From: a virus
Virus record (IMG/VR): IMGVR_UViG_3300013093_000272
Location: 1 to 24,296 of that record
Reading direction: 5' to 3' (one strand)
DNA: 24,296 nt
Position numbers and translations under genes: made by a program. This document shows positions 21,123-23,711 of the stretch, one piece after another. Positions within the stretch are counted from its first letter, which is position 1. Each line of letters opens with the position of its first letter. Under the pieces are notes generated by a model. The model saw nothing but the letters and a program-made list of their open reading frames with translations. It had not been told where the DNA came from and did no database searches.

Positions 21123-21720
21123 GTTCTGTTATCACTTCTTTAAGTATGTTTTTGAATTTAACTTTGTCGTATTGTATAAAAGGTGCATACTTTTCACATT
21201 TCAATCGCCAGTTGGGCCAGATAATATCATCACTGATTTTACGGTCCCACATGGGAAAGAAGTTCATAATATCATTAAGTATGCACAAAGTTTCTACTGA
21301 AATTGTACCAGACATTACCTCACGGAGTAAGATAGGATGTTGACCATCATTGACAATCAACATTTGTTCTGGTGCATCATTTCCTACAAGACCAAGTATA
21401 TCATTTTCAAAGACATATGTCAAGCTCTGGTTAATCTTCTGCCACTTTTTGTATGCCACTTCACCTTCAGGTCCAGTCATTTCACCAACCCAAGACGCAT
21501 CACCATATACAAAATTTGCAAGGTAAAAGTTCCGCAATTCTTCCAAAGAAAACTTCCGTGAAAGTTTGTAGAAACTGTATTTGTCTTTACGTTTGAGAAA
21601 TGTTTCTTTAGATACATTGGTCTTGCCATTATAGCGAAAAAAATCATAGGATTTTGAGGTGAAGTGTGTTTTCAGTGCATTATAAAGTGCAAAAGATGCA
21701 AAACCTGTACCTTCATTCAT
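21115..21720 (-). CDS. 59: gp59-like loader of the replicative helicase
   Basis: This 201-aa protein (T4 gp59, 217 aa) contains FLKRKDKYSFYKLSRKFSLE, then ELRNFYLANFVYGDASWVGE (about 42-80). This parallels T4 gp59 (KRRDKYFFQKLSEKYKLKEL...WIGD). The C-terminal half has SGTISVETLCILNDIMNFF and WPNWRLKCEKYAPFI, also with T4 counterparts. gp59 binds forked DNA and gp32-coated ssDNA and loads gp41 helicase. The gene order 33-59-(insertion)-32 matches T4. The start overlaps the gp33 stop (ATGA). Confidence 0.93.
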   Translation of the reverse strand: MNEGTGFASFALYNALKTHFTSKSYDFFRYNGKTNVSKETFLKRKDKYSFYKLSRKFSLEELRNFYLANFVYGDASWVGEMTGPEGEVAYKKWQKINQSLTYVFENDILGLVGNDAPEQMLIVNDGQHPILLREVMSGTISVETLCILNDIMNFFPMWDRKISDDIIWPNWRLKCEKYAPFIQYDKVKFKNILKEVITEHA

Positions 21721-21938
21721 AGCGGAAGTTTAGATGCTTTTTTGATTAGATTAACTGATTGTGCTTCTTCACGGATTCGTGCTTTGAGGTGAGATGAAAT
21801 TAAGGTGGCAGCCACCTCAATCTCAATACCTGTTTCTTCGCAATGTTGAACAATAGCATCCATGCAATGAATGTCATACTGTTCTGCAATTTCCTCAATC
21901 TTTAGTGAGAAGTCACGGATTTCGTCTTTACTTGGCAT
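21717..21938 (-). CDS. 33: gp33-like late transcription coactivator
   Basis: I choose the start at 21938 (MPSKDEIRDFSL, 73 aa) over the ATG at 21968 because it overlaps the preceding stop as TAATG. The core EEIAEQYDIHCMDAIVQHCE and the following VAATLISSHLKARIREEAQ segment align in pattern with T4 gp33 (MVEEFGMSYLEATTAFLEEN...IQSEA). The adjacency to gp59 is the same as in T4. gp33 bridges RNA polymerase and the sliding clamp gp45 and is needed for late transcription. The protein is shorter than T4 gp33 (112 aa) and lacks the extended C-terminal tail. Presence of gp33 supports reading the TATAAATA sites here as late promoters. Confidence 0.82.
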   Translation of the reverse strand: MPSKDEIRDFSLKIEEIAEQYDIHCMDAIVQHCEETGIEIEVAATLISSHLKARIREEAQSVNLIKKASKLPL

Positions 21939-22171
21939 TATTTGGCCTTCAATGCATAGACCATGCAAAGGTTATCTGTCTGTGTTGCATATGCACACTT
22001 AACAGAAATAGGATCAATACCTCTTTGAATGGCTGAGTCCATGTTTTTTGACATGTTGTTACGGTCATTAATGTTTGACAAATAAGAACTAATGATTATT
22101 GATACGGCAACAATAGTGATACATGCCAATAATGTGATAACAACTTTCAAATTTGAATTTTGGTTTTCCAT
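21938..22171 (-). CDS. small single-pass membrane protein, function unknown
   Basis: The ATG at 22171 (MENQNSNLKVV, 77 aa) is chosen over the upstream in-frame ATG at 22330, which lies wholly inside the SleB gene. AAGGAAA lies just upstream of 22171. Residues 9-29 (KVVITLLACITIVAVSIIISS) form one membrane helix. The outer part has IQRGIDPISVKCAYATQTDN and two cysteines (C59, C69) that could form a disulfide. It sits between the wall hydrolase and gp33, so a lysis-related role (spanin- or holin-like) can be imagined but not supported by any motif. Confidence 0.7.
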   Translation of the reverse strand: MENQNSNLKVVITLLACITIVAVSIIISSYLSNINDRNNMSKNMDSAIQRGIDPISVKCAYATQTDNLCMVYALKAK

Positions 22172-22782: not shown

Positions 22783-23235
22783 TTAGAAAGAGAACTTTGC
22801 GCCTACAGCAACGGTGTTACCATCAAAAGATTTAACTTTGTGGTCACCATCTTGATAACGATAATCAACAGTCAAAGCAAGTGCCTTGGTAACTGGAACG
22901 GTAACGCCAGCACCAACTTCAGCAACATAACGCTCATCGCTCTTGATACCTTTCTTGTCAAGGTAACCAACACCAGCCTTAGCGGTCAATGCGGCATTAC
23001 CCAACTTGAAAACATCATAACCACCGATAACGCTGAATTTGTCTAGGTTACGTTTGATTTCACGGTCGGCTTCAGCAGTAACGCTTACTTTACCAAAATG
23101 TTCACCTACAGTCAAACCAAAACCATCACGGTCTTTCTTGCTGTAATTGTCGATAGAACCATTAACACCAACTTCAACGGCTGATGCAACTCCAAATGCA
23201 GCCATCAAAGTGGCCAATAGAACTAACTTCTTCAT
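22783..23235 (-). CDS. phage-encoded outer-membrane beta-barrel protein
   Basis: The start at 23235 (MKKLVLLATLMAAFGVASA) is chosen because AAAGGAG lies 8 nt upstream and the first 19 residues are a clean signal peptide (Lys-Lys, hydrophobic core, ASA cleavage site). The mature ~131 residues alternate polar and hydrophobic in strands separated by charged turns (VSVTAEADREIKRNLDKFSV, GVGYLDKKGIKSDERYVAEV) and end VAVGAKFSF. A terminal Phe after alternating residues is the signal recognised by the BAM machinery. The length suits an eight-stranded barrel (OmpA/OmpW/Opa-like size). It could change host surface properties, for example block superinfection, but this is inference. It may also have been acquired from a bacterium. 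It lies directly downstream of the tmRNA terminator-like hairpin. Confidence 0.85.
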   Translation of the reverse strand: MKKLVLLATLMAAFGVASAVEVGVNGSIDNYSKKDRDGFGLTVGEHFGKVSVTAEADREIKRNLDKFSVIGGYDVFKLGNAALTAKAGVGYLDKKGIKSDERYVAEVGAGVTVPVTKALALTVDYRYQDGDHKVKSFDGNTVAVGAKFSF

Positions 23236-23254
23236 TAAAAACTCCTTTAAGTTA

Positions 23255-23291
23255 AAAAATGCCAACTGATTGGGTAATAAGGACAGTTGGC
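23255..23291 (-). terminator. terminator-like hairpin after the tmRNA coding half
   Basis: On the minus strand GCCAACTG-(15 nt)-CAGTTGGC forms a perfect 8-bp stem followed by ATTTTTTAAC. It probably ends the precursor tmRNA. The ribosome site of the outer-membrane protein gene follows about 10 nt later, so that gene would depend on read-through, or the hairpin acts in its leader. Confidence 0.75.
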
Positions 23292-23308
23292 GAAACCTCA
23301 GCTTAACC

Positions 23309-23341
23309 TCAAGCGGCTAGGCGGTAAACGCTTTCGTTTGC
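23309..23341 (-). other. tmRNA proteolysis-tag reading frame (ANESVYRLAA-stop)
   Basis: Resume codon GCA (23341-23339), then AAC GAA AGC GTT TAC CGC CTA GCC GCT and TGA at 23311-23309. With the alanine from the charged tmRNA the tag would be A-ANESVYRLAA. It keeps the AN(D/E) start and the LAA end needed for ClpXP recognition in E. coli (ANDENYALAA). The stop lies in a small stem GCTT/AAGC (23314-23301), as in P5 of E. coli tmRNA. Confidence 0.92.
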
Positions 23342-23429
23342 ATTTATTTTTGATTTAGTGTTTACGTCAACTCTGACGGATAGCCTAATATAATACTTGT
23401 TACCCTGTCGAAACTATTTCTCGCCCATC

Positions 23430-23513
23430 ATAAAAATTCAGGCTTGGATTATGTGGATGTCCGTGATACCTTAGTCATCTTCATTACCGCACGGCGCTGG
23501 CCTGAATTTTTAT
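23430..23513 (-). repeat. perfect 14-bp inverted repeat closing the tmRNA intervening segment
   Basis: ATAAAAATTCAGGC (23430-23443) and GCCTGAATTTTTAT (23500-23513) are perfect inverted copies flanking a 56-nt loop. The helix stacks on the acceptor stem through C-G, a C/A mismatch and A-U, giving one long hairpin in the precursor. Inside the loop a CCGTG/CACGG stem (23461-23465 with 23490-23494) is possible. The segment should be removed by RNA processing to give two tmRNA pieces. Confidence 0.9.
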
Positions 23514-23579
23514 GGTGGACGAGGGCGGTACTGCCCCGCCGTCCAGAATACTTTTCTTATACCAAGTTTACTATCATTA

Positions 23580-23711
23580 TTAGCGCACCGATTCGGTGTG
23601 CTTACCTTTGACAGACTTCTTCAATAACTTCATCCAAAATTTCTTGGCTTTTTCTAAGTTATGTTCAAATTCTGCACGATTTAGTTTTTGGATTAATTTT
23701 TTGATTTTCAT
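23580..23711 (-). CDS. 43-residue basic amphipathic peptide, unknown function
   Basis: The reading frame MKIKKLIQKLNRAEFEHNLE, then KAKKFWMKLLKKSVKGKHTE and SVR-stop has its ATG overlapping the preceding stop (ATGA at 23711-23708), the coupling used throughout this phage. It is strongly basic, with 13 Lys and 2 Arg in 43 residues, and helical in pattern. Its 3' end forms a GCACACCGA/TCGGTGCGC hairpin and abuts the tmRNA acceptor half. It could be a small RNA- or membrane-binding peptide. It could also be non-coding leader of the tmRNA transcript, although the overlap argues for translation. Confidence 0.5.
   Translation of the reverse strand: MKIKKLIQKLNRAEFEHNLEKAKKFWMKLLKKSVKGKHTESVR

Follow-up and report, generated by a model that had tools for sequence, protein, structure and literature searches.

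A two-piece tmRNA gene of probable betaproteobacterial lineage in a T4-like phage, with an apparently chimeric elbow, an exchangeable tag cassette and a conserved spacer RNA

The permuted tmRNA locus

The stretch of DNA analysed here (the window) is a virus fragment of 24,296 bases that carries a complete circularly permuted tmRNA gene on its minus strand, at positions 23605-23261. ARAGORN calls a permuted tmRNA (tmRNA*) at 23218-23605(-) with the tag ANESVYRLAA, and cmscan with Rfam yields 126 bits for RF04321 (tmRNA_permuted; gathering threshold 47, E 1.2e-24, model positions 1-213 of 213) and 85.5 bits for RF01850 (betaproteobacterial tmRNA). A dedicated search with RF01849 (alphaproteobacterial tmRNA) yields 74.1 bits. 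The RF04321 and ARAGORN matches lie far beyond chance level. The initial annotation had recognized all key tmRNA parts on the minus strand in permuted order; each element that it named is present, its tag is the one called independently by ARAGORN, and its coordinates are right almost to the base (CCA end at 23513, start of the coding piece at 23426, end of the 3′ hairpin at 23261). A standard one-piece tmRNA is excluded by the order of the halves and by the model matches.

Sequence features expected of RF04321 are present: the acceptor half lies 5′ of the coding half, the 7-bp acceptor stem is intact with G3-U70, A73 and CCA, and the tag frame has a resume codon and a stop (ANESVYRLAA*). Directly 5′ of the acceptor piece is a leader hairpin, GCACACCG-AAT-CGGTGCGC (23583..23601, minus strand, as are all features below). 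Contig L003 lacks the overlapping upstream gene and yet has the hairpin with 30/30 identical positions; in L011 it has another sequence with pairing retained (GCACAC..GTGTGC). The acceptor piece (23513..23575; RF04321/RF01850 and ARAGORN) comprises a P2 strand GATAG (23575-23571), the T-arm GGCGG-GGCAGTA-CCGCC (23540-23524), the acceptor 3′ strand CTCGTCC (23523-23517), A73 (23516) and the encoded CCA (23515-23513). It is followed by an intervening segment, or spacer, of 86 nt (23427..23512; 109.6 bits with our model R1). The coding piece, aligned by RF04321 and RF01850 up to the tag stop (23309..23426), begins with the acceptor 5′ strand GGGCGAG (23426-23420), in which G3 (23424) stands opposite U70 (23519), so that the sequence bears out the alanine-type acceptor stem of the initial annotation. 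The D-loop AAATAGTT, then TCGACAGGG, and the P2 strand CTATC (23383-23379) lie within the same piece; TTTCGACAGGG, which had been named among the coding-half elements beside GGGCGAG and the tag, is present on the minus strand. ARAGORN places the tag frame GCA...TGA, encoding ANESVYRLAA, at 23309..23341. The 3′ hairpin GCCAACTG...CAGTTGGC (23261..23291, z -3.45) belongs with the tag; its counterpart in L011 has the same loop and a different stem, GCCGGATG/CATCCGGC.

The contig belongs to a T4-like phage, as seen from its genes for baseplate wedge and hub proteins, tail tube, DNA end protector, gp33-like coactivator, gp59-like loader and gp32-like SSB. The gene next to the tmRNA on the downstream side (22783..23243), an outer-membrane protein gene according to the initial annotation, has no PHROG match. 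Farther downstream is the gp33-like late-transcription coactivator (21717..21968; phrog_254, E 3.5e-15). Its baseplate protein is closest to those of the isolates HTVC008M, Mosig, Melnitz and Caulobacter phage Cr30, with identities of 36-39%, and blastn of the whole locus against INPHARED (50,697 phage records) gave no match. The tmRNA lies upstream of gp33/gp59/gp32, the position that it has in Melnitz, and in Mosig it precedes gp33 and a gp59-like gene. HTVC008M has a permuted tmRNA in the same region (KC465899.1 145161-145370), with the T-loop TGCAATA, that is unannotated in GenBank.

Conservation among relatives

Two blind scans, made separately with the acceptor half and the coding half, converged on one set of 13 viral contigs, and therefore the two halves go together. 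One of the relatives, L006, is the same phage as the window (99.96% over 14.7 kb). L003-L005 are ~84-95% identical to the window over most matched stretches, with the acceptor piece and spacer 100% identical and the next two genes at 85-97%. The acceptor piece is also identical in L011 (62/62), though the other alignable genes of this contig are only ~70-80% identical.

The acceptor stem of the window differs from the common GGGGGCG/CGCCTCC through double changes. The initial annotation had made its case depend on a significant covariance-model match and on acceptor-stem complementarity in related phages; the match is significant, and the complementarity is retained. G3-U70 and A73 are kept in 121/121 viral records, which were parsed with at least 6 of 7 acceptor-stem pairs required. 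The tag frame is open in 14/14 members despite its replaced sequence.

Lineage of the tmRNA body and the chimeric elbow

Betaproteobacterial two-piece tmRNA reportedly constitutes a third lineage of such genes, a finding credited to Sharkady and Williams in 2004. The 85.5 bits of the window with RF01850 are marginal against a gathering threshold of 84 and exceed its score with RF01849; L002, L007 and L424 reach 117-142 bits with RF01850. In a tree built on a short alignment of ~330 columns, the window group clusters with betaproteobacterial hosts (SH-aLRT 99). This placement, which we regard as moderate evidence, agrees with the kinship to bacterial lineages with two-piece tmRNA proposed in the initial annotation.

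A feature that had been overlooked is the T-loop, which is GGCAGTA and not TTCRANY. The betaproteobacterial genes read for comparison (12/12) have TTCRANY T-loops and NGG D-loops, and the window would be a chimera with a betaproteobacterial body rather than a plain betaproteobacterial tmRNA because its T-loop is non-canonical for that lineage. Among the matches listed for the GGCAGTA T-arm pattern, 112 of 118 genome contigs are assigned to Alphaproteobacteria; the others have no class assigned, one being a Marinimicrobia MAG. The alpha-type tmRNA on L130, a contig binned as Marinimicrobia, probably reflects a binning error or transfer. A purely alphaproteobacterial gene, as the T-loop by itself would suggest, is ruled out by the model scores and the tree: the loop fits RF01849, but neither the best match nor the tree position is alphaproteobacterial. 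Judged by these comparisons, the tmRNA body is of betaproteobacterial lineage and the T-loop/D-loop elbow is of alphaproteobacterial type.

The T-loop and D-loop sit on opposite sides of the spacer, and their types covary across it in all parsed genes (GGCAG with NAG, TTC with NGG), save for two exceptions, L191 and L060, that look like parsing artefacts. The near-identical phage L421 illustrates an exchange of the elbow, which is changed on both flanks of an identical spacer core. It matches the window at 97-100% in the leader, P2, spacer core, coding part, tag and 3′ hairpin, and has an elbow of the other (ordinary) type, with identities of 21/33 in the T-arm and acceptor 3′ strand and 10/15 in the acceptor 5′ strand and D-loop. 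The window T-loop, which is without T54-Psi55, is probably active in alphaproteobacteria, since it is the normal loop there.

The tag cassette

L003 and L004 follow the window at 96-100% through the leader, acceptor piece, spacer and 5′ part of the coding piece. Identity then drops to 17/33 for the tag and 23/51 for the 3′ hairpin before recovering to 85-97% in the next genes. Their tag is ANDEKFALAA in place of ANESVYRLAA, and the 3′ hairpin is swapped along with it. The same segment differs between the L011 group (ANDSEYRLAA) and the L276 group (ANDSRFLMVA). From these alignments, the tag and 3′ hairpin appear to form an exchangeable cassette; that of L003 is similar to the one in L002, a likeness that points to recombination. 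L275, L276, L279 and L280, with a backbone otherwise like that of L011, have the tag ANDSRFLMVA without the usual AA end, and so tag-directed proteolysis may be dispensable in this group.

The spacer RNA element

The spacer (23427-23512) is closed by a stem of 13-14 bp that prolongs the acceptor stem, and it is presumably excised. It is 86/86 identical in L003-L005. A search of Rfam up to E 1 returned nothing besides the tmRNA models themselves, and a riboswitch or known ribozyme was rejected for want of an Rfam match. The spacer core, GTGCGGTAATGAAGATGACTAAGG, is found in seven further viral contigs. Five of these have it in tmRNA spacers with other acceptor stems, while L423 (2280-2350) and L426 (~685-755) have it in another phage as a stand-alone element with its own closing stem, between tRNA-Met and tRNA-Trp. 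Two contigs with the same element, L422 and L427, have 19 tRNA genes near the tmRNA.

Across six distinct copies, a small sample, the core is nearly invariant, and the 24-base search pattern itself forces part of this invariance. The closing stem covaries in the same six copies, with 4 pairs changed on both sides against 0.7 in shuffles, and the paired fraction of the stem collapses once the partner is slid. These patterns indicate a conserved structured RNA, an element of 82 nt, that is absent from Rfam. With model R1, only the L002 spacer adds a clear match (25.6 bits, E 8e-4), and the retrained model R2 added none. L002, of beta type, and L027, of alpha type, have a common spacer core of 54 nt without gaps (score 80 against a maximum of 33 in 1000 shuffles), which points to transfer of spacers from one tmRNA lineage to another. 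In L011 and L276 the spacer is a hairpin of just 37 nt, and the tmRNA therefore does not depend on the element.

No match to the element was found in phage isolates or plasmids, nor in 150 genomes of the betaproteobacterial host's order, a search run without a positive control. A looser core pattern gave four extra matches, all of them in unrelated surroundings that lack tmRNA and tRNA genes. Derivation from a tRNA was also considered, as GGTTCGAATCC occurs in some spacers, but was rejected: T-arms with a stem number 2 against 0.56 expected and up to 4 in shuffles, which is no significant enrichment. A different spacer of 144 nt is found in L087, L092, L094 and L103 (140/144 identical between L087 and L092), whose tmRNAs show compensatory differences from one another in the acceptor stem and T-stem.

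Protein genes in phage tmRNA spacers

Spacers have a median length of 86 nt (up to 277) in 121 viral genes, chosen by the alpha T-loop pattern, against 12 nt in 115 host genes, many of which are SAR11. Among phage spacers of at least 25 nt, 76% have ends that pair over 7 bp or more, compared with 5% in shuffles, in samples that include relatives and are to this extent non-independent.

Many marine spacers, that of Melnitz among them, contain an ORF behind a Shine-Dalgarno sequence. The Melnitz ORF (MFKWLSKTRLVV...; spacer peptide MFKWLSKTRLVVITRDYF...) is unannotated in MZ577097. Spacers with ORFs number 21/72 against a shuffled mean of 8.9 and maximum of 19; such counts are weak evidence by themselves, and the case for coding spacers therefore rests on selection and homologues. 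Family A (MFKWL..ITRDYF..IPKYLSG) occupies a tmRNA spacer, in whole or in part, in 18/18 relatives found, with a dN/dS of 0.23 (L252, which is Melnitz MZ577097 with its tmRNA at 45984-46436, L055, L104, L109 and L391-L408). Family B is a common free-standing gene for a small phage protein with 290 relatives; among the 80 of these that were kept, 12 are nested in tmRNA spacers (L311-L321 and L323), one cut by a contig end, and L038, L042 and L095 are alike. Its dN/dS inside spacers is 0.07. These ratios and homologues indicate that marine spacers, that of Melnitz included, carry small protein genes under purifying selection. In the literature searched, no description of protein genes inside tmRNA spacers was found.

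Proposed function and alternatives

The interpretation that we hold with high confidence is that the locus encodes a phage-borne two-piece tmRNA of betaproteobacterial lineage, with swapped modules and a conserved spacer RNA, that acts by the following route. The locus would be transcribed together with neighbouring genes, and the acceptor stem (GGGCGAG paired to CTCGTCC) would form a single long helix with the spacer stem. Host tRNA-processing enzymes would then generate a CCA terminus at 23513 and a 5′ terminus at 23426, leaving two pieces held together by the acceptor stem, P2 and the contact between T-loop and D-loop. Host AlaRS would charge the tmRNA via G3-U70, and the charged tmRNA would enter stalled ribosomes with host SmpB, add ANESVYRLAA and let the ribosome terminate, after which tagged fragments would be passed to host proteases. 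The structure, pairing, covariation and conservation of the gene are established by the comparisons above; processing, alanine charging, SmpB action, tagging and proteolysis are expected by analogy with established tmRNA biology. SmpB was not found in 22 phage records by a search that was positive in 10/14 control genomes; the window covers 24 kb of its phage genome, and an SmpB gene may lie elsewhere in it. As SmpB is encoded in none of the records checked, the tmRNA presumably works with that of the host. The phage likely brings its own rescue RNA, as the initial annotation had proposed, and our guess at the benefit is that ribosomes stalled on cut mRNAs are freed during infection. The exchanges of elbow, spacer and tag cassette described above indicate that the gene evolves through module swaps.

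Selection might act instead on the spacer product, an RNA here and small proteins in marine relatives, with tmRNA processing serving to excise it. The invariant core, in tmRNA copies and stand-alone in L423/L426, and the dN/dS of 0.07-0.23 in marine spacer genes would fit this reading. However, the acceptor piece is identical in L011 and L276 despite a spacer of just 37 nt, which argues that the tmRNA itself is under selection, and we consider the reading improbable. A decoy role, in which host SmpB or AlaRS is captured and rescue is hindered, has a precedent in phage DS6A, whose CDS-less tmRNA is reported to block rather than perform rescue (PMC11915505). The missing phage SmpB, the unusual elbow and the ANDSRFLMVA tags of one sub-group are compatible with such a role, but most members keep a complete tag frame ending in LAA and the replacements are also complete frames, not losses, making a decoy unlikely as well. 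Least probable is a decayed relic of a host tmRNA, kept by chance and non-working: the case for function derives from sequence, the tag ends atypically in one sub-group and the T-loop is non-canonical, but a relic would hardly show an acceptor piece and spacer at 100% identity beside genes at 85-97%, compensatory changes in the acceptor stem, P1 and T-loop/D-loop, and a tag frame that stays open through sequence replacement.

A rescue tmRNA built from exchangeable modules is also a natural experiment. Within the tmRNA gene, the close relative L421 departs from the window chiefly in the elbow and L004 chiefly in the tag cassette, so that the effect of each module is directly testable. The permuted gene is otherwise regarded as two halves plus waste; the conserved spacer RNA and the marine spacer genes suggest that permutation created room for extra genes. 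We put forward tentatively, as something slightly short of an even chance, that the spacer is a functional cargo slot in aquatic T4-like phages, holding a conserved RNA here and small protein genes in marine relatives. If so, one transcript would mature into three products, the two tmRNA pieces and a third RNA. Since the Melnitz spacer gene sits in a published, isolated phage, this idea is testable in culture, and the spacer is in our judgement the part of the locus that most deserves experiment.

Comparison with known two-piece tmRNAs

The initial annotation suggested that no two-piece tmRNA had been described in a T4-like phage, but one has been published for Melnitz (Buchholz et al., 2022; PMC9004378) and another is annotated in the GenBank record of Mosig. 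Among 133 distinct phage tmRNAs, 53 are two-piece genes, and all but three of these come from marine or aquatic phages (50; PMC9004378); a tmRNA database paper of 2025 gives 79 phage tmRNAs. The kind is therefore known; what is new are details of this locus, namely the chimeric elbow, the swappable tag cassette and the conserved spacer RNA, as read from the sequence.

Melnitz and Mosig resemble the window in having a permuted tmRNA in a T4-like phage, upstream of gp33, with no SmpB found. They differ in that both carry a glutamine riboswitch, whereas the window has no riboswitch match and a different spacer, and the Melnitz gene is alphaproteobacterial in type whereas that of the window has a beta-type body. 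Among bacterial genes, the betaproteobacterial two-piece tmRNA (RF01850) is the best clan match for the window group, and some betaproteobacterial hosts feature a spacer hairpin and a GATGGGG junction like those of this group, but host spacers measure 5-43 nt compared with 86 nt in the window. The alphaproteobacterial two-piece tmRNA (RF01849) has the T-loop GGCAGTA and the D-loop NAG in common with the window, which differs from it in TTTCGAC and TTCTGGAC, both as in betaproteobacterial tmRNA.
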